A program made the position numbers and the translations under genes. Below the pieces are notes generated by a model, which was given only the letters and a program-made list of their open reading frames with translations, was not told the DNA's origin and did not search any database. DNA of 27,772 nt, from the IMG/VR virus record IMGVR_UViG_3300017746_004520, positions 1 through 27,772 of that record; one strand, 5' to 3'. Shown here piece after piece: positions 2,093 to 24,737 of this stretch (positions are counted from its first letter, which is position 1; every line of letters begins with the position of its first letter). The stretch is from a virus.

Positions 2093-2735
2093 ACTCTGCT
2101 CTCCTATTCTTTAATAAGGGTAAAAAAGGTATAGCACTTTTTTCAAAAACAATCGGATCATCTCCATCAATAGTCATGATAATAGCTACATCTTGAATTC
2201 CAGTACCGTACATCTCATTATGTGCGACAGCGTACGCACAGCCTTGAATATAATAGTCAGTGATTTGTTTCTGGTTCTTTTTCTTTTTTGATGTTTTAAA
2301 ATCAATAATTGTAGGTTTACCTTTCCAAATACCGACCATATCAGTTCTACCTGCGTACCTATATTTATTAGACCAAAGAACTTGTTCTTGTCCCCAAATC
2401 TCTTCAACTCCGCGCTCTGTGGCTCTAATCAAATCGCGACTCATTTGCCTTACGTCGAGCCTCTGATGCATTAATTCGTCCCATACGTCTTCCCCGTTGA
2501 AATAACGTTCTGCAAATTCGTGAACTAAAGTGCCTCGATCTGTCGCTTCTTTGGAAACCCGTGCGGCTTCTTCTTCTCCTACTCGTTCTTTCCATTTCTG
2601 TAACCAAGTTTGATCTGAGGTTTTACCTAGAATAGTAGTAATAGATGGATAAGATCCATCAGGTGTGTGATAAGTTCTTCCACTAGGTAGAGTATCAGTA
2701 TCTACCTCAGTTATGTATTTGAACTTCTCTTTCAT
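2061..2735 (-). CDS. PD-(D/E)XK exonuclease, RecB/Cas4-like
   Basis: 224 aa from ATG 2735. An earlier ATG at 2774 would extend it 13 residues further into the carbamoyltransferase gene; neither has a strong ribosome-binding site. In 2774-start numbering: H85 in RGTLVHEFAERY, E130 (GQEQVLWS), D145 (YAGRTDMVG), D158-x-K160 (IIDFKTSKK) and a distal QxxxYA-like segment near 177-181. This is the order expected for RecB-type nucleases that bind two metals. Such genes in phages serve recombination, repair or host-DNA degradation. It is the only clear DNA-metabolism enzyme in this half of the window. Confidence 0.8.
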   Translation of the reverse strand: MKEKFKYITEVDTDTLPSGRTYHTPDGSYPSITTILGKTSDQTWLQKWKERVGEEEAARVSKEATDRGTLVHEFAERYFNGEDVWDELMHQRLDVRQMSRDLIRATERGVEEIWGQEQVLWSNKYRYAGRTDMVGIWKGKPTIIDFKTSKKKKNQKQITDYYIQGCAYAVAHNEMYGTGIQDVAIIMTIDGDDPIVFEKSAIPFLPLLKNRRAEFDKLQRAQDS

Positions 2736-4071
2736 AATCTTCAACGGTATTGACAATAGGTTTTCCTTTCGCATTTAAGCTTGTATTAATTAGTATAGGA
2801 TAACCATGTTGTCTTGTTATCTCTAATATTCTCCAAACATAAGCGTTTTTATTACGACTTATTACTTGAAGACGAGCTGATTTATCGTGAGTAGTAAAAT
2901 TACCTCCAATAATATCAGCAACAAATAACATATCATAACTAGGCTGATAAATTTTAAACCACGTATCAGCTTCTTCTTCTTGACATATAGGCGCATAAGG
3001 TCTCCACGAATCTGTCTCACGCTTTTTAATTTGATTTAGTTTTTCTATGTTATCATCTGTGGGGATACATAGCAAGCTTCGATTACCAAGCGCGCGAGGA
3101 CCAAACTCTGCTCTACCTTGAATAACTGGGACAATTTCACCCCTGAGCAGTCTAGCAGCTACTTCATCGGGAGTAATTCCGTTATCGTCTTTTACTCCTA
3201 GATAAGCATTTTCCCAATTAGGTCTACAAATTAAGGCGGCGGCGCCAAGCGCACATCCAGCATCTCCAGCAGCAGGTTGTATTGCAATGGAATCAAATCC
3301 TGAATGCTTTTTAATATTAGTATTAGCTACACAGTTAAGAGCGACTCCTCCTGCATAGGCTAAGTTTTTCATCCCAGTCTCTTCTTGTAACCAAGTAGCT
3401 AAAGATAAAAGTACGTTCTCAGTTACACGCTGAACAGAAGCAGCTACGTCCCAATCCAAAACGCCGTAACCAACACCGCGTTCAAGATTATGAAGTAAGG
3501 TATAATCTCCTTCTGCATTCCAATCGATAATTTTTTGATTTATCCAAGGCAGCCACTTAGGTTCTCCATAAGCTGCTGCTGCCATCACTTGAGACTCGTC
3601 AGAAAGAGGTTTAAGTCCCAAGAAACGAGTAGCACTAGAGTAAAATAAACCAATAGAGTTTGGATAAAGAAATCTTTTAATCCATTCAATTTTGCCATTA
3701 CGATAAACTCCTAAAGATGTTGAATACTTATTTCCGACCGTATCTACTACCATCACTGCGCACTCATACCAATCAGTCATAAGCACAGAACTCATAGCAT
3801 GAGCTTCGTGATGGTCTACTAAAATAGGTTGTGCTTTAGTTATTTTTTTAATCTCTGATTTAAAATCAGAATAGGTAGATTCTTCATAAAAAGCAGCAAA
3901 CTCAAAATCTTCCCACGCATTCTGCAACCACGATATGGTATTGATTGGAAATGACTTATCATATTTTTTACGAGTAAAGCGTTCTTCGTGAGAAGCTCCT
4001 AAAATATGAGTATCTTTTAATGCTGCTGCTGCACTATCGTGGTGATAGCAGCTGACTCCTAGTATGTTCAT
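2707..4071 (-). CDS. Carbamoyltransferase, NodU/CmcH/TobZ family
   Basis: 454 aa from ATG 4071; the TTG codon just before it is ignored because AGG lies about 9 nt upstream of the ATG. Counting from that TTG: HHDSAA at 11-16, the metal/carbamoyl-adenylate motif HHEAH at 88-92, the Kae1/TsaD-like nucleotide loop GGVALN at 242-247, and C-terminal FGPRALGNRS at 324-333 with INTSLNxKGKPIV near 429-441. The family uses carbamoyl phosphate and ATP to carbamoylate a hydroxyl of a sugar or antibiotic. It stops soon after the IVNTVED motif, so it may lack the short final segment other members carry. Neighbours suggest a glycan substrate. Confidence 0.85.
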   Translation of the reverse strand: MNILGVSCYHHDSAAAALKDTHILGASHEERFTRKKYDKSFPINTISWLQNAWEDFEFAAFYEESTYSDFKSEIKKITKAQPILVDHHEAHAMSSVLMTDWYECAVMVVDTVGNKYSTSLGVYRNGKIEWIKRFLYPNSIGLFYSSATRFLGLKPLSDESQVMAAAAYGEPKWLPWINQKIIDWNAEGDYTLLHNLERGVGYGVLDWDVAASVQRVTENVLLSLATWLQEETGMKNLAYAGGVALNCVANTNIKKHSGFDSIAIQPAAGDAGCALGAAALICRPNWENAYLGVKDDNGITPDEVAARLLRGEIVPVIQGRAEFGPRALGNRSLLCIPTDDNIEKLNQIKKRETDSWRPYAPICQEEEADTWFKIYQPSYDMLFVADIIGGNFTTHDKSARLQVISRNKNAYVWRILEITRQHGYPILINTSLNAKGKPIVNTVEDYEREVQIHN

Positions 4072-4609
4072 CAAAGTACCTATTAAATATTGAGGTTAAA
4101 TCTTTTTTAGTTTTGCCTAAGTAGTTAGGAGAACTTACAAAATCAACAAAAGCCCATCTGTAATTATCCACTACCGGTTGAATTCTATGAACCATAAAAC
4201 AAGGAAAATACATAGTCTTACCTGGTTTAGGGTATATTCTTGCTATGATCTTATCTGGTTCTGGAGCAGAAAAATCTGTCTGTAAAACTCTTTCATTTTT
4301 CGGATTCCAAGTACCTATTTCAAAAGGCTTACCTTCAGTAAGATAAACAATATGCGTCCAAAAACGACTTGCTCGTGATGAGGTAAGTCTTCCGTGAGTA
4401 TAATCTAGATTATCAAAATGCCACTCATAACCTTCGCCTGGTTTTAATAAAATTGCAACTTTATCAGCTACGTCACATCTCCATTGATGGCCGTATCTGG
4501 TGTAGTTTTTAGAGCAATAGTCTACTAACTTTGTAGAACTTTTAGCTATTGATTCTGAAAACCCGACAGTAACTGCGTCGGCCCATTCTGGGTCAATGTA
4601 ATCTTCCAT
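4034..4609 (-). CDS. 2OG-Fe(II) oxygenase
   Basis: 191 aa. Iron ligands are visible as H64-x-D66 (YEWHFDNLD) and H141 (VHRIQPV), with R151 (YRWAFVDF) as the likely 2-oxoglutarate anchor. The first motif follows a PGEGYEWH segment like that of prolyl-hydroxylase-type phage oxygenases. A GAGG lies upstream at slightly long spacing. The 3' end overlaps the carbamoyltransferase start by about 38 nt. It belongs to a different subgroup from the 170-aa oxygenase downstream. Substrate unknown; a peptide residue, nucleobase or sugar are all possible. Confidence 0.7.
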   Translation of the reverse strand: MEDYIDPEWADAVTVGFSESIAKSSTKLVDYCSKNYTRYGHQWRCDVADKVAILLKPGEGYEWHFDNLDYTHGRLTSSRASRFWTHIVYLTEGKPFEIGTWNPKNERVLQTDFSAPEPDKIIARIYPKPGKTMYFPCFMVHRIQPVVDNYRWAFVDFVSSPNYLGKTKKDLTSIFNRYFDEHTRSQLLSPR

Positions 4610-10537: not shown

Positions 10538-11629
10538 ATGCCCAAGGCTGTTGCCTTCATACCTCACAAACGAAGAATAGAACGTCATCGAATAGATTAT
10601 CTTCGTGCTATTTCAGATAATATGGAAGATCCTTATCAAACTGAAGATGGTAGAGAAATGCGAGGAGTACAACTCGCACTAGCTAATAAGTGTACTGAAC
10701 TGAGCGGTGTTACTCACTGGCAATTTACAGACTGCTGTACAGATGCTCTCCAAATTTCAATTGCCGCTCTCACAAAACCTAATGACACAGTGATCGTTCC
10801 ATCTTATGGTTGGCGAGCATTTGCAAATGCAGTTGTATTTATGAATCGGCGTATACGTTTCTGTGATATAGATGCAACAGGCAATATAGATTTAAATCAA
10901 CTTGAAACTTTAATTAAAACAACACAGGCTGCAGCTGTAGTAATTGTTCATAATTTTGGTACAGTTGCGAGGGTTGACCAGATAGTAGATATCTGCGAAA
11001 CTCATGGAACTCATATTATTGAAGATGCAGCTCCTGCATTTTATATGGGAGAACCGTACTCATACGTCCCTGGTTCTATGAGTTCTACTGCATCTTTTTC
11101 TTTTGACTTTACAAAGTATCCAGGAACGCTCGGCTCTGGAGGTGCTATTTGTACTAACTCAGATGAAATTGCTGAACGAATCTACGAAATTTCAGCACAT
11201 GGCAGAGGTAGGGATAAGGCAATACATTGTGCAGGTACAAAATCATATATGGACATGACTTCGTGCGCTGTACTCCTAAAAGAAATTGAGTTGTTTGAGC
11301 AAAACCAGTATAGAGAGCGTCGAAGACAGATTGCTACTTGGTATAAAGACAATCTTCCCTATGGAAATATACCTGGAGAAAATTATGTTTGGGAGAGATA
11401 TACAATGAGTGTACCTTCCTTTGAAGTTGATGAGGTGCTTCAAAAACTTAACTCTGTAAAGTGTCTTGCACGAACATTTTTTAAAGAACCTCTTCATTTG
11501 CTACCGTGGCTTAATCCTGAAAAGGATGATTGTCCAAAAACTGTAGAGTTTTGTGCTTCTACTATTCATCTACCTTCTCATCATTATTTAACAGATGAGG
11601 AACTTGAAAGAATAAAGTCTGTGCTATGA
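10538..11629 (+). CDS. DegT/DnrJ/EryC1/StrS aminotransferase
   Basis: 363 aa, near the usual length for PLP-dependent sugar aminotransferases. The PLP lysine is K193 in SFDFTKYPGTLGSGGA, and the PLP-binding Asp is D163 in IIEDAAPAFYMG. The phosphate-binding loop is around TDCCTDALQISI (64-75). The family transfers an amino group, usually from glutamate, to a keto-sugar nucleotide. The ATG follows the previous stop directly and its own stop overlaps the next gene (ATGA). Substrate unknown; it could work with the SDR that follows or with the Fe-alcohol dehydrogenase 3 kb downstream. Confidence 0.85.
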   Translation: MPKAVAFIPHKRRIERHRIDYLRAISDNMEDPYQTEDGREMRGVQLALANKCTELSGVTHWQFTDCCTDALQISIAALTKPNDTVIVPSYGWRAFANAVVFMNRRIRFCDIDATGNIDLNQLETLIKTTQAAAVVIVHNFGTVARVDQIVDICETHGTHIIEDAAPAFYMGEPYSYVPGSMSSTASFSFDFTKYPGTLGSGGAICTNSDEIAERIYEISAHGRGRDKAIHCAGTKSYMDMTSCAVLLKEIELFEQNQYRERRRQIATWYKDNLPYGNIPGENYVWERYTMSVPSFEVDEVLQKLNSVKCLARTFFKEPLHLLPWLNPEKDDCPKTVEFCASTIHLPSHHYLTDEELERIKSVL

Positions 11630-13449: not shown

Positions 13450-13668
13450 ATGTACTACATTATTGAAATACATAATACAGAAAATGATGAAATAGGAGTA
13501 GTGACAGAAGAGATAGATGGTGAACAGATTATCAAAAAATTTGATACCTGGTCTAAGGCAAAGGCTATGTCTGGTACACTAAATAGAGATACCCCTGAAA
13601 ATCTCTCTACTCACATAGTAACCATTAATGAAACTGCTACAAAAGATAAAGAAGTGGATAACGATTGA
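13450..13668 (+). CDS. Small acidic unknown protein (72 aa)
   Basis: 72 aa from ATG 13450 (MYYIIEIHNTENDEIGVVTE...). The frame is open from a TTG at 13351, but that part overlaps the previous gene. The ribosome-binding site is weak (AGG about 15 nt upstream). Short beta strands are followed by FDTWSKAKAMSGTLNRDTPE. Very acidic. No family recognised. Overlaps the membrane-protein gene by 41 nt. Confidence 0.5.
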   Translation: MYYIIEIHNTENDEIGVVTEEIDGEQIIKKFDTWSKAKAMSGTLNRDTPENLSTHIVTINETATKDKEVDND

Positions 13669-14002
13669 CCATTGTGTTGATCTTGCCGTTGATATATTGT
13701 TAATTGTATGGGAAGTTATCAGTAGTCCAATACTTATAGCTATGCGTCTTATAAGGCACTTTGTAGGTGAGTGGATAACAGATAAAATTAAAGCAGGAGT
13801 GCGTAAAATAGCACACTGGTTTGAGCATAAAAGAGAGTATAGATTAAAAAACGGATATGGAATATTTCGTACATATTGGTGGTTAATTATTTCAAGTCCT
13901 ATAATTATATTTATCAGTATTTTTATTGTAGCTATACTGTCAGGATTACACGAAGGTTTAAATATAGCTTTCGAAGAAATTAGTGCTTCGTTTGAGGAGT
14001 AG
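13628..14002 (+). CDS. Small membrane protein, two predicted TM segments
   Basis: 124 aa. A first hydrophobic segment runs about 17-40 (DLAVDILLIVWEVISSPILI), a basic amphipathic loop spans 43-80 (IKAGVRKIAHWFEHKREYRL), and a second TM covers about 83-107 (YWWLIISSPIIIFISIFIVA). Both hydrophobic runs contain ISSP. There is no signal peptidase site. It could be an inner-membrane accessory such as a holin-like or superinfection protein, but no lysis gene is nearby. A 162-codon open frame on the opposite strand is taken as its shadow. The stop is followed at once by the tmRNA -10 box. Confidence 0.6.
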   Translation: MKLLQKIKKWITIDHCVDLAVDILLIVWEVISSPILIAMRLIRHFVGEWITDKIKAGVRKIAHWFEHKREYRLKNGYGIFRTYWWLIISSPIIIFISIFIVAILSGLHEGLNIAFEEISASFEE

Positions 14003-14008
14003 TATAAT
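14003..14008 (+). promoter_or_regulatory. -10 box for the permuted tmRNA
   Basis: Perfect TATAAT directly after the stop of the membrane-protein gene. Transcription would begin near 14014-14016, right at the tmRNA acceptor piece. The -35 region (about 13980) is poor, so it may depend on a phage factor or be incidental. Confidence 0.4.
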
Positions 14009-14013
14009 AGACG

Positions 14014-14049
14014 GACTGGACTCGGGGGCAGTACCCGACGGCTCCACCA
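14014..14049 (+). ncRNA. ssrA: Permuted tmRNA, acceptor piece (T arm, acceptor 3' strand, CCA)
   Basis: The 3' half of a tRNA-like domain: GGAC, T-stem TCGGG/CCCGA (14022-14026 with 14034-14038) closing a 7-nt loop GGCAGTA, then the acceptor strand CGGCTCC (14039-14045), discriminator A and encoded CCA (14047-14049). CGGCTCC pairs over all 7 positions with GGGGCCG at 14306-14312, which lies 257 nt downstream rather than upstream. The third pair is G-U, the alanine identity element of tmRNA and tRNA-Ala. This is the order of a circularly permuted tmRNA gene. The T-loop is non-consensus. The 5' boundary and the P2 pairing to the coding piece could not be fixed by eye. Confidence 0.85.
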
Positions 14050-14305
14050 TAAACACAGGAATAACACATGAAAGAATATATGTTAATAATCAGCATGTGG
14101 GGAAGTGATGGAAGCACAGAGCATTACATTGGTCAGATGGTTTTACAACAACCAATGAGTAAATCTCAGTGTGAGTGGATGATTGAGGATGAACAGTGGG
14201 GTGCAAGTTTTGATAATGAGTATTACTTCTTTGCTAGACACTGTATGCCAAAAGATTGTGCTGGAAAAGATTCCTGTGACTAAACACTATTGGTGTGTTT
14301 ATGAT
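14050..14305 (+). other. Intervening segment of the permuted tmRNA precursor
   Basis: 256 nt between the CCA of the acceptor piece and the 5' G of the coding piece. In known permuted tmRNAs this part is removed from the precursor to give a two-piece RNA, with the CCA end and the 5' end made by the tRNA-processing nucleases. Here most of it is filled by a 71-codon gene with its own AGGA. Confidence 0.7.
14068..14283 (+). CDS. Small unknown protein encoded inside the tmRNA intervening segment (71 aa)
   Basis: 71 aa. AGGA (14057-14060) lies 7 nt upstream of the ATG, and the stop is 22 nt before the tmRNA coding piece, so the gene fits fully between the two mature RNA pieces. The sequence is rich in aromatic and acidic residues (SQCEWMIEDEQWGASFDNEY) with four Cys (three in the tail, CMPKDCAGKDSCD), which could bind metal. 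No family recognised. The frame, ribosome-binding site and composition support a real gene. How it is translated from a precursor cut by RNase P and 3' nucleases is unclear; it may have its own longer mRNA. Confidence 0.65.
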   Translation: MKEYMLIISMWGSDGSTEHYIGQMVLQQPMSKSQCEWMIEDEQWGASFDNEYYFFARHCMPKDCAGKDSCD

Positions 14306-14477
14306 GGGGCCGAAATAGGATCGACAGACGTAATAAAAACAATGCCGAGAAGCAGGTGCGCAAGCGACCTCAACCGCAAGAAAACAAACAATTGCAAATG
14401 ATAATTTCGCAATCGAGGATTACCGCATAGCGGCATAATCTCACGGGGTATGGTTCCACCTAGCAACAGAACGGGCC
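14306..14477 (+). ncRNA. ssrA: Permuted tmRNA, coding piece (acceptor 5' strand, D-like arm, tag ORF)
   Basis: Begins GGGGCCGAAATAGGATCGAC, the conserved tmRNA 5' end. A PK1-type region with hairpin AGGTGCG/CGACCT (about 14353-14370) follows, then the resume codon GCA at 14394. The tag reads ANDNFAIEDYRIAA with stop TAA at 14436-14438. It has the ANDNFA start and AA end of alphaproteobacterial tags, the end being the ClpXP/ClpAP degron. The end of the tag folds as helix P5: GAG-ATTA/TAAT-CTC around CCGC-ATA-GCGG (14415-14442). The 3' end, after CAACAGAACGGGCC, is approximate. Function: rescue of stalled ribosomes and tagging of truncated proteins. Confidence 0.88.
14394..14438 (+). other. tmRNA proteolysis-tag reading frame
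   Basis: 14 codons plus TAA: A-N-D-N-F-A-I-E-D-Y-R-I-A-A. The resume codon is GCA. The first six residues match what I recall for the Caulobacter tag (AANDNFAEEFAVAA, counting the Ala from the charged tmRNA), and the AA end is the universal degron. Confidence 0.85.
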
Positions 14478-14500
14478 TTTATAACTCTTATGAGGACTAA

Positions 14501-15643
14501 ATGTTTAACTTCAATACAACCCCGCGACTTATCATTGGTGCAGATAGGTTAAAATTCTTAAGCACTATTCTATCAGACCTTGGTATCAGAAACCCTTTGA
14601 TTGTAACGGGTCCAAATCTTTCAAAAACAAATATAATTAGTAATGTACAAAAATATGTTAACACTAATAATGTCTTCTATAATATTGTACAAGATCCCAC
14701 TACTCAAAACGTTCATGATTGTGTAGCATACGGACTTGATAAAAAAGTAGATGGCATTATTGGGATAGGGGGCGGTTCGTCCTTAGATGTAGCTAAAGTA
14801 GCAGCAGTACTTTTAAAAGGTGAAGAATCTTTAGAAAATATTTGGGGGGTAGACAGTATAATGGGTTCAAGGCTACCTCTTATCCTAGTTCCTACTACTG
14901 CAGGATCTGGCTCAGAGGTTACTCCTGTATCTATTATCACAACAGGTAATACAACAAAAATGGGTATTGTTTCTCATAAAATCATACCTGACGCGGCTAT
15001 CCTTGATCCAGTACTAACCTTAACATGTAATCCTAAAATTACTGCGTATAGTGCTATAGACTCTATGGTTCATGCGATTGAAGCATATACATCAATTAAT
15101 CCAAATAATAATCCCTACTCAAAAATGCTAGCTATCGAAGCGTGTAAGTGGTTAGGTAAATCTACTAAAATTGCTATTACAGAACCCGAAAATTTAAAAG
15201 CAAGGGCAGATGTACAGTATGGTGCTATGCTAGCAGGACAAGCTTTCGGCAACTCACCTGTTGCTGCTGTCCATGCTTTAGCATACCCATTAGGAGGACA
15301 CTATAAACTACCACATGGTTTAACAAATACCTTGGTTCTTCCTGGTGTTTTAGCATATAATCAAGAAGTAGTAGATTATTCACCTCTAGCAGCAGCTTTA
15401 TTTCCTCATGACCAAGGAGAGGTATACTATCATAAAAGCGATGTTGTTGAAATAATGTGTAGAAACATACAAGAATTAGCTGAATTAGCTGGGATAAACA
15501 CTAAGATGAGACATTACGGAATCTCAAACGACTGTATTCCTATGCTAGCTGAAGAAGCAATGAAACAAGCAAGGCTTTTGGTTAATAACCCAAGAGAAAT
15601 TACGCAAGAAATAGCTGAAGATATTTATCAGAAAGTTTTGTAA
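14501..15643 (+). CDS. Iron-containing (type III) alcohol dehydrogenase
   Basis: 380 aa, full family length. The NAD(P)-binding motif GGGSSLDVAK is at 90-99 and PTTAGSGSEVT at 131-141. The four metal ligands are D187, H191, H258 and H272; the 4- and 14-residue spacings match E. coli FucO. It oxidises or reduces an alcohol/aldehyde pair. GAGGA lies 4 nt upstream of the ATG and about 15 nt after the tmRNA coding piece. It is the first gene of the sugar operon and ends in TAATG. In Shewanella a similar enzyme (KdnB) oxidises Kdo at C8 before transamination by KdnA, so with the DegT enzymes here a comparable route is possible, but not shown. Confidence 0.85.
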   Translation: MFNFNTTPRLIIGADRLKFLSTILSDLGIRNPLIVTGPNLSKTNIISNVQKYVNTNNVFYNIVQDPTTQNVHDCVAYGLDKKVDGIIGIGGGSSLDVAKVAAVLLKGEESLENIWGVDSIMGSRLPLILVPTTAGSGSEVTPVSIITTGNTTKMGIVSHKIIPDAAILDPVLTLTCNPKITAYSAIDSMVHAIEAYTSINPNNNPYSKMLAIEACKWLGKSTKIAITEPENLKARADVQYGAMLAGQAFGNSPVAAVHALAYPLGGHYKLPHGLTNTLVLPGVLAYNQEVVDYSPLAAALFPHDQGEVYYHKSDVVEIMCRNIQELAELAGINTKMRHYGISNDCIPMLAEEAMKQARLLVNNPREITQEIAEDIYQKVL

Positions 15644-23075: not shown

Positions 23076-24235
23076 GAATAGAGATAGTAGGAAAATTCTA
23101 TGATAATCATTCGCTATCAATTATCAATAGAAAATTAGCCATTGGTCTCAGCATATCAGAGAATATGGATGTTTATATTACACCACTAGATTCATTTGAT
23201 CCGGTGCACAAACTTTCAAAGAGGCAAGCAAGAATTATAAAGAATCTTGAAGCAAAAGAGCAGCCTGAACCACCAGAAATACAAATTAGACATTGCTATC
23301 CCCCAGTATGGGCTTGGCCAGTACATGAAATGACAAAAGTTATTTATATCCAGCCCTGGGAATATGGAAAAGCTCCTTTTGAGTGGCAATATAAGTTTGA
23401 AACCTTTGCAGATGCGTTAATAGTGCCAAGTAATTATATTGCATCAGTATTTAAACAAGGCGGGTTAGATCCTAATAATATCTTTGTAGTACCTAACGGT
23501 TTTGACGATGCTATCTTCAATAAAGAAGAAGCAGAGGAGCACCCACTTATCAAAAAAGATAGATTTAATTTTGTATATGTAGGAAATACTCAGTGGAGGA
23601 AGGGCCTAGATATTATGCTTAACTCTTGGAGTAAAGTTTTTAAAAAATATGATAAAACTACTCTCATCATCAAAGATAATCCTGCAATTTACGGTAAAAA
23701 TAATGCTATCAGTGAAATCATTAAAATGCAGTATAAAACAGGATGCGCTGAAATTATTTATATTGATGATGCTTTGTCAGATAAAGAAATGGCCCAACTA
23801 TTTAAATTAAGTAAAGCTGTCGTACATCCATATAGAGCAGAAGGTTTTGGTATGCATATTCAAGAAGCTTTTGCATGTGGTTGTATTCCTATCGTATCAG
23901 CAGATGGCCCAACCGAAGATTTCCTTCCTTCTGACATAGGGTTTAGGATTAATGTAGAGCAAAAACCTATAGATATCATGGCGGATAATATATTTGCTGC
24001 TAAATCAGGGGATGCTATGACTATGATGAGCAGTCACTCGTTTGCTAATGAACCTTCTGGACAGCACCTAGAAAAAATTCTACAATATGTGTATCATCAT
24101 CATGATAAAAACGTTATGTTAGATGCCGTAAATAATGTTGAATTAGAAAATACGTGGGACAATGTTATAAACCACTATATAAAGGCGATTGAAAATGTCC
24201 ATTCCAGAAACAAAGTTAACAGATTCAGAAATTAA
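23072..24235 (+). CDS. Family 4 (GT-B) glycosyltransferase
   Basis: 387 aa. The retaining-GT motif E257-x7-E265 lies in AEGFGMHIQEAFACGCIPIV, with PSNYIASVFKQGG and VPNGFD in the linker and GNTQWRKGLDIML beginning the donor domain. Transfers a sugar from a nucleotide donor with retention. It is the last clear GT in the sugar operon. Its end overlaps the Fe-S carrier gene by about 40 nt. Confidence 0.85.
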   Translation: MRIEIVGKFYDNHSLSIINRKLAIGLSISENMDVYITPLDSFDPVHKLSKRQARIIKNLEAKEQPEPPEIQIRHCYPPVWAWPVHEMTKVIYIQPWEYGKAPFEWQYKFETFADALIVPSNYIASVFKQGGLDPNNIFVVPNGFDDAIFNKEEAEEHPLIKKDRFNFVYVGNTQWRKGLDIMLNSWSKVFKKYDKTTLIIKDNPAIYGKNNAISEIIKMQYKTGCAEIIYIDDALSDKEMAQLFKLSKAVVHPYRAEGFGMHIQEAFACGCIPIVSADGPTEDFLPSDIGFRINVEQKPIDIMADNIFAAKSGDAMTMMSSHSFANEPSGQHLEKILQYVYHHHDKNVMLDAVNNVELENTWDNVINHYIKAIENVHSRNKVNRFRN

Positions 24236-24737
24236 TCAGTTTTTTGCTGATTTAGAAGCTCAAGCAGATAAGGATGAAGTATCTCGTCTTGCACAACAAG
24301 TGTTAAATAAACACAAAATGCAAGAGCCTACTCTTGAAGAAAAAGTATTATCTGATTTTCACGGTCACGCACCTATAATAGAGTCAGAATACGAAGGGCA
24401 GCTTCCTAAACTCACTGCAAAAGCTAAAATTTATATACTCTCTAATCTAGAGCCTGGGCAGATGTTTAGGTTTGGGGTGTCTGGTGGTGGTTGTAGTGGT
24501 TTTAACTACCTGTTCGATGTAGCAGAAGAACTTGAAGATGATGATATTAAGTTTTGTGATGATCCCCCCTCTGTTGTTGATCCTGAAAGTATAAAGTTTT
24601 TGTATGGAAGCACCATAGATTTAGTTACAAGTGGTATGAATAAACAATTATCAGTAGAAAACCCAGGAGCTAAAGCCTCTTGTGGGTGTGGGACTAGTTT
24701 TGCTTATGATGAAGAGCTTTTGGATATGTACCCATGA
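24195..24737 (+). CDS. A-type Fe-S carrier (HesB/IscA-like) with N-terminal extension
   Basis: 180 aa from ATG 24195. The C-terminal domain (about 71-180) has the three cluster-binding cysteines C100 (GGGCSGF), C163 and C165 (ASCGCGTSF); the spacing equals that of IscA. The family receives and delivers [2Fe-2S] or [4Fe-4S] clusters. Residues 1-70 are a helical, charged extension absent from cellular IscA (~107 aa). Such genes are known in marine phages. Its partner here is unclear; no Fe-S enzyme is seen in the window. ATGA overlap with the next gene. Confidence 0.85.
   Translation: MSIPETKLTDSEINQFFADLEAQADKDEVSRLAQQVLNKHKMQEPTLEEKVLSDFHGHAPIIESEYEGQLPKLTAKAKIYILSNLEPGQMFRFGVSGGGCSGFNYLFDVAEELEDDDIKFCDDPPSVVDPESIKFLYGSTIDLVTSGMNKQLSVENPGAKASCGCGTSFAYDEELLDMYP

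Follow-up and report, generated by a model that had tools for sequence, protein, structure and literature searches.

The intervening sequence of a phage two-piece tmRNA as a probable cassette site for small protein genes

The stretch cut out of a split tmRNA is usually deemed discarded RNA. The locus analyzed here, a permuted tmRNA gene on a virus record, raises the question of whether that stretch can instead carry a gene of its own. As set out below, the comparison of this locus with its relatives suggests, at a probability of roughly three in four, that the intervening sequence (IVS) of phage two-piece tmRNAs is a cassette site for small phage protein genes.

The tmRNA and the gene between its pieces

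The window, that is, the whole stretch of DNA analyzed, is a virus record of 27,772 bases with phage-type genes, including an exonuclease (phrog_298, E 9.9e-61) of a family matched in 953 phage records. Among 20 related records, 4 carried the T4-type capsid gene gp23 and 6 a terminase above the cut-off, the terminase family also matching 6 of 14 control genomes of cells; related records with neither capsid nor terminase may be fragments, and some may not be viral. The tmRNA has metabolic genes around it: Pfam families were matched at 2707–4074 (Nol-like carbamoyltransferase), 14501–15643 (iron-containing alcohol dehydrogenase family) and 24189–24737 (Fe-S carrier-type protein), and the product of 10538–11629 is presumably aminotransferase-like, judging from its sequence.

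Working from the letters alone, the first-pass annotation had proposed a permuted two-piece tmRNA at 14014–14477 and had named Infernal and ARAGORN as checks. Scanning with cmscan detected RF01849 alpha_tmRNA at 13934–14480 on the plus strand (111.6 bits, gathering score 50, E 5.7e-30, model positions 1–355) and RF04321 tmRNA_permuted at 13985–14438 (97.3 bits, gathering score 47). Both matches are significant and each covers both pieces, which bears out the proposal and its coordinates, even with several model pairs of the P2 helix non-standard in the Rfam alignment. ARAGORN reported nothing in the window; it reported a tmRNA in 7 of 10 related loci (L007–L009, L011–L013 and L015). The parts of the tmRNA gene are as follows.

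14018–14049, plus strand: tmRNA acceptor (3′) piece, with GGAC, T arm (14022–14038) and acceptor strand (14039–14045); its 5′ end is approximate, the Rfam match running from 13934 and the P2 strand from about 14012
14046–14049, plus strand: end of the acceptor piece, A at 14046 and CCA at 14047–14049, read from the sequence
14050–14305, plus strand: IVS of 256 nt, presumed to be removed as in known permuted tmRNAs
14306–14480, plus strand: tmRNA coding (5′) piece, from the Rfam match, 3′ end approximate
14394–14438, plus strand: tag reading frame ANDNFAIEDYRIAA with its stop, by translation

The acceptor strands 14306–14312 and 14039–14045 pair at 7 of 7 positions and include the G3-U pair, just as had been annotated. 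The tag that had been described is likewise present: its frame (14394–14435) reads ANDNFAIEDYRIAA, ends in AA and is closed by a stop at 14436–14438. The hairpin over the tag end and stop is present in the minimum-energy fold, that of a whole precursor folding only slightly better than shuffles (z −1.10). The acceptor stem, the T arm and a short P2 emerged when the two pieces were refolded jointly; since 9 of 300 mononucleotide shuffles reached the same stability, the joint fold is modest evidence. The Rfam match is the main evidence for the tmRNA.

An alpha-type permuted tmRNA on a virus record thus stands, whereas the alphaproteobacterial host that had been read from it does not follow: according to the accessible text of PMC9004378, an alpha-type tmRNA is also carried by phage Melnitz, whose host is an OM43 methylotroph, so the type is no proof of such a host. 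The phage control over ribosome rescue that was also suggested is plausible as a putative role. SmpB was matched neither in the window nor in the 20 related records, some of which may be fragments, and use of the host SmpB is therefore assumed. That result would also suit a decaying or decoy tmRNA, whose tRNA-like domain would compete for SmpB and whose insert would reflect a loss of function. The window tmRNA scored below both bacterial tmRNAs scored alongside with Rfam (111.6 versus 202.9 and 247.7 bits), so its function could be altered, and there is a precedent in mycobacteriophage DS6A, whose tag-less tmRNA-like RNA inhibits the host tmRNA, as the accessible parts of PMC11915505 and PMC4131195 describe. 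Nevertheless, of 162 viral and isolate loci, 119 yielded a tag, with an AA end in 115 of the 119 (a simple motif gave none in the remaining 43). In a search that accepted only loci with at least 6 acceptor pairs, all 7 form in 130 of 131 loci, and the fifth position shows exchanged pairs. We consider decay or a decoy role improbable and proceed with a tmRNA that would work with host SmpB.

As comparison with relatives shows, the 256-nt IVS between the CCA (14049) and the 5′ G (14306) holds a conserved 71-codon gene, which the first-pass annotation had overlooked. The features of the insert are given here.

14050–14057, plus strand: 5′ arm TAAACACA, prolonging the acceptor stem by 8 of 8 pairs with 14294–14301; conserved in viral IVSs
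14057–14060, plus strand: Shine-Dalgarno-like AGGA, from the sequence, overlapping the end of the 5′ arm; this class of motif recurs before other IVS open reading frames (ORFs)
14068–14283, plus strand: 71-codon gene of family D, MKEYMLIISMWG..., from relatives, purifying selection and predicted fold
14281–14287, plus strand: second copy of TAAACAC, a direct repeat of 14050–14056, at the end of the gene, from the sequence
14294–14301, plus strand: 3′ arm TGTGTTTA of the acceptor-stem extension, from pairing and the joint fold
14302–14305, plus strand: TGAT before the tmRNA 5′ end, complementing ACCA with one mismatch; conserved

TAAACAC thus flanks the window gene on both sides. Searching viral contigs, we found relatives of the window ORF in 25 loci. 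The closest, L002–L006, are 76% identical and come from loci in which no tmRNA was matched. Of the 10 loci L007–L016, 8 carry a permuted tmRNA (L007–L009, L011–L013, L015 and L016); in these eight the family D homologue stands free, about 1.04 kb upstream of where the Rfam match begins. In L007, a 280-aa ORF on the minus strand (3042–3884) lies between the free-standing family D gene and the tmRNA; from its GGGIGLTRM motif we take it to resemble a class II aminoacyl-tRNA synthetase.

The ORF could be a chance frame in a structured spacer: shuffled IVSs yield such frames in 31 of 146 cases on average, and the window ORF matched 0 families in Pfam and PHROGs. However, the window ORF and its free-standing homologue in L002 differ at 26.2 of 33.0 synonymous but only 25.8 of 180.0 nonsynonymous sites (p=4.4e-13), while the same comparison in the two other frames is flat (p=0.85 and 0.80). 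Such frame-specific purifying selection indicates that the window ORF is a protein gene, and, together with the conserved free-standing homologues, it refutes a chance origin for this gene, which we rate as very improbable; chance is possible for single short ORFs elsewhere.

AlphaFold predicted a beta-beta-alpha-beta-beta fold for the window protein (pLDDT 85.8). This model had no match at E<=0.001 in PDB or BFVD, and the sequence search accompanying the fold searches returned no solved relative at E<=1. A second family of IVS proteins, family A, has a similar predicted topology, yet the profiles of families A and D are not alike (probability 0.5). In the isolated window IVS, the Shine-Dalgarno region (14050–14062) is predicted to pair with the ORF end at 14270–14278 (CACAGGAAU/AUUCCUGUG), an alternative to the acceptor-extension stem that is not significant (z −1.48, 15 of 200 shuffles as good).

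Intervening sequences across viral contigs and bacteria

Viral loci were collected with a core pattern (at least 120) and with patterns for longer IVSs (31, 7, at least 120, and 2), one of the 7 loci from one longer-IVS pattern proving to have a short IVS. The core-pattern sample was drawn without regard to IVS length. Among the matches listed for it, 113 of 120 loci had both pieces; their median IVS was 80 nt, 41 IVSs measuring 100 nt or more and 21 of them 150 nt or more. An IVS ORF was defined as at least 27 codons covering at least half of the IVS. With a looser pattern, 33 of 114 core-sample loci carry one, among the matches listed. The pooled set comprised at least 309 viral loci with 221 distinct IVSs, 146 of them at least 100 nt long, among the matches listed; it is enriched for long IVSs and for family A, and some contigs are counted twice.

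Among the matches listed, a substantial ORF occurs in 121 of the 146 distinct viral IVSs of at least 100 nt, and dinucleotide shuffles of the same IVSs gave 31.3 ± 4.8 (maximum 42 in 100 runs). For IVSs of at least 150 nt, the figures were 70 of 74 among the matches listed versus 13.7 ± 3.1 in shuffles (maximum 20). In an earlier, smaller set, in which each IVS was taken singly, the ORF was longer than in shuffles at p<0.05 in 56 of 72 IVSs and at p<0.01 in 31. Since shuffles alone give 31 of 146, some of the short IVS ORFs must be chance.

After tmRNA-encoded residues had been trimmed, the 121 IVS ORFs fell into 40 clusters, 17 of which have at least two members. Frame-specific purifying selection was detected in family A (p=2.7e-7, the +1 frame also giving 0.0088), family C (4.5e-8), family D (7.3e-11 in addition to the value above), family E (1.3e-7 and 9.2e-8), family F (8e-6) and one family B pair (2.9e-12); the other family B pair showed no significant selection (p=0.072). 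Ten IVS proteins from other loci were scanned, of which that of L171 is a PGDYG protein above the cut-off and one resembles DUF2061 just below it. The family A protein had no structural match in PDB at E<=0.001. In phage records, tblastn of family B, C, D and E IVS proteins gave no match, and family A matched only four Melnitz records. A Shine-Dalgarno-like motif precedes 81 of the 121 IVS ORFs, lying wholly within the stem in 34. Furthermore, the 379-nt IVSs of L409 and L410 hold a second frame ahead of the family E gene, each frame being preceded by AAAGGAGATT, as if cassettes could stack. Misassembly was considered and rejected, the same IVS genes recurring in several contigs and an isolate genome also having an IVS ORF. 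In the open-licence PMC literature we found no description of a protein gene in an IVS.

By sequence comparison, IVS genes appear rarer in the bacteria examined, where IVSs are mostly short. The pattern for IVSs of 201–261 nt gave 31 viral loci, whereas a collection spanning 84,980 species yielded 6 bacterial loci, and only 2 of the 6 have a truly long IVS (201 and 251 nt), with frames of 37 and 31 codons. It is worth noting that this bacterial control sees exact-core tmRNAs only, which 21 of 142 alphaproteobacterial genomes have; 20 of the 21 IVSs are at most 67 nt, and the remaining genome, with 201 nt, was the chosen centre of the draw. RF04321 was matched in 359 of 385 alphaproteobacterial genomes, but the 201-nt case is absent from the matches listed, which are bounded by score, so a long IVS can be hidden. 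The three longest spans among the matches listed (351, 332 and 289 nt), read by eye, have IVSs of 165, 115 and 92 nt. The first holds no ORF and the second a frame of at most 28 nt; the third has an ATG frame over nearly its whole length that continues into the tmRNA and starts one nucleotide after the CCA, with no room for a ribosome-binding site within the IVS. The tmRNA of Rickettsia tamurae (L193 and L220) has a 251-nt IVS with a long inverted repeat, which we take to be perhaps a Rickettsia palindromic element.

Paired arms, cassette exchange and the placement of stops

The two ends of the viral IVSs are complementary. When the first nucleotide after the CCA is set against the fifth before the tmRNA 5′ end and the count runs inwards, 7 or all 8 of the possible arm pairs form in 170 of the 182 distinct viral IVSs that measure 60 nt or more. 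When 5′ arms were combined with the 3′ arms of other IVSs, only 46.5 ± 4.8 did so (maximum 58 in 500 runs), a control in which sequence relatedness remains. The fifth pair of the stem varies, each of the four Watson-Crick combinations being frequent there (CG 54, TA 44, GC 37, AT 16). TGAT ends 173 of 217 distinct viral IVSs, and because it pairs with ACCA but for one position, the acceptor stem and its extension are almost continuous in the window. Of the bacterial IVSs examined, many of them too short for the comparison, only a few showed a stem of this kind. The paired arms would hold the acceptor end together whatever the length of the loop, so that inserting or exchanging a gene would be harmless to the tmRNA.

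That genes differ on the same tmRNA body became evident from 230 distinct combinations of body and IVS, the body being 34 nt of the acceptor piece plus 200 nt of the coding piece. L271 and L280 have identical 234-nt bodies but unrelated IVS genes and different arms, and the same holds for L100 or L366 compared with L138. Pairs of empty and occupied sites were also found: L126 (IVS of 26 nt) and L379 (137 nt) with bodies 98.7% identical, L011 (24 nt) and L007 (202 nt) with 97.4%, and L154 (37 nt) and L119 (239 nt) with 95.7%. The L007 insert lacks a full frame started by ATG, so it may be decayed or use another start. For the window itself, the nearest tmRNA relative in the set is 78% identical over the first 200 nt of the coding piece, and this lack of a near relative precludes an empty-site comparison.

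The whereabouts of family A were followed in the loci of the best 80 of 185 relatives. By regular expression, 23 of these genes lay inside an IVS, 29 upstream of a tmRNA (101–586 nt before its CCA) and 28 in loci where no tmRNA was found. An Rfam scan of 20 of the 28 placed 5 inside a tmRNA and left 15 without one, so that, for the best 80 of 185, the final counts are 28 inside the IVS, 29 upstream and 23 without a tmRNA found (15 scanned with Rfam, 8 by regular expression only). In two of the loci without a tmRNA, L235 and L277 (2910–3001 in each), a tRNA-Thr precedes the family A gene, which begins 15 nt past the CCA of that tRNA and so mirrors its start behind the tmRNA CCA in other loci; in L277 there is also a tRNA-Leu further on, at 3196. 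Because family A (23 of 80, best 80 of 185) and family D (L002–L006) occur without a tmRNA, the genes of these two families are independent of the IVS position.

These locations bear on whether the IVS is simply a tolerated spot, transcribed and open to insertions that do the RNA no harm, with no functional link between protein and tmRNA. The large number of unrelated families (40 clusters), the free-standing family A and D genes with or without a nearby tmRNA and the two family A genes directly after tRNA-Thr are what such a spot would produce. On the other hand, family A lies with a tmRNA, in two positions, in 57 of 80 loci (best 80 of 185), and the placement of stops, which is uniform within families (see below), suggests more, although shared ancestry can explain both of these points. 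A tolerated spot is a serious contender as to the link, to which we give somewhat less than even odds.

Returning to the cassette site, we propose the following course of events. Acceptor piece and coding piece would be transcribed as one RNA, with the IVS between them contributing a gene and a ribosome-binding site of its own. The paired IVS ends would lengthen the acceptor stem, so that the precursor folds as a tRNA-like substrate with the gene looped out; cuts at the CCA and at the 5′ G would then free the two pieces, and these would function together with host SmpB like any ordinary tmRNA. The small protein would be made from the precursor, from the excised IVS or from both, and cassettes would be exchanged together with their own matching arm pair, probably by recombination in the conserved tmRNA flanks. 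Sequence comparison shows the tmRNA itself, the conserved gene, the paired arms and the presence of different cassettes on one and the same tmRNA body; processing, translation, SmpB use, the route of recombination and any regulatory link are what we infer.

The placement of stops raises the further question of a regulatory link. The TGA of TGAT, one nucleotide before the cut, serves as the stop in 44 of the 121 ORFs; another 38 stop within the tmRNA coding piece and 39 inside the IVS. Taken together, 82 of the 121 have their stop at the expected RNase P cut or past it, so that excision would leave these with a nearly or wholly stopless message; the window gene, whose stop lies 22 nt before the cut, is not among them. 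Placement is uniform in family A (16 of 16), family E (17 of 17) and family F (10 of 10). In E. coli, arfA is a known precedent of tmRNA-linked feedback of this kind. By analogy, maturation of the tmRNA might leave the excised IVS as a (nearly) nonstop message, to be tagged by that very tmRNA; the small protein would then arise chiefly from the precursor or at times of scarce rescue capacity. The stops at the TGA of TGAT or inside the coding piece and their uniformity in families A, E and F would suit such feedback, but 39 of 121 ORFs, the window gene included, end inside the IVS, and borrowing a conserved TGA would give the same pattern with no regulation at all, so that feedback is doubtful. 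Equally speculative is a two-way RNA device built on it, in which the transcript could be matured to a tmRNA or read as a message, the excised message could become a nonstop substrate of that very tmRNA, and small phage proteins, possibly serving host takeover or modulating rescue, might be gated by rescue capacity.

In many viral contigs, the cut-out of a split tmRNA is a compact slot for conserved small genes that seemingly change while the surrounding RNA stays the same. It offers a route to small phage proteins that annotation overlooks, as well as a natural setting where RNA processing of the tRNA type and translation of an mRNA meet on one molecule. It also makes testable the translation of excised tmRNA spacers and the regulation by a tmRNA of its own cargo.

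Comparison with known systems

The phage-borne two-piece tmRNA itself is already published (PMC9004378): in the accessible text, 53 of 133 distinct phage tmRNAs are two-piece, 50 of these coming from marine or aquatic phages. That text, in which the word "intervening" occurs 0 times, makes no mention of an IVS ORF. Melnitz is the nearest likeness, a phage with a permuted alpha-type tmRNA whose 142-nt IVS holds a 54-codon ORF, 41 codons of it within the IVS. Its record has no CDS annotated there, and since the ORF matches others largely in tmRNA-encoded residues, it was given no family. Melnitz differs in a glutamine riboswitch that Rfam detects downstream and does not detect in the window. In pelagiphage Mosig the IVS measures 43 nt and holds no gene of this kind, and several other isolates with IVSs of about 98–111 nt have no convincing gene.

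Cellular permuted tmRNAs (RF01849 and RF04321) share with the window the gene order, the acceptor and T arm, the G3-U pair and a tag ending in AA; in contrast, the cellular IVSs examined are mostly short and gene-free, and the regular long stem was not seen in most of them.

Protein genes inside tmRNA genes are also known from group I introns, 36 of 883 intron forms carrying a homing endonuclease according to the accessible part of PMC11915505. Such a gene, too, is missing from the mature RNA, but the intron interrupts the T loop and splices itself out, whereas the insert described here sits between the two pieces of a permuted gene. An intron with its endonuclease was rejected: the two tmRNA families were all that Rfam matched, both across the window at gathering score and in 13600–15000 up to E 1, and no endonuclease was matched by the window ORF (PHROGs and Pfam) or named in the match descriptions of the ten other IVS proteins.

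IVS cargo as such has a parallel in the tRNA-Ala or repetitive element reported in the IVS of permuted tmRNAs in the accessible part of PMC11915505. That cargo is an RNA gene or a repeat, found in one sequence each, whereas the viral IVSs compared here carry many families of protein genes.
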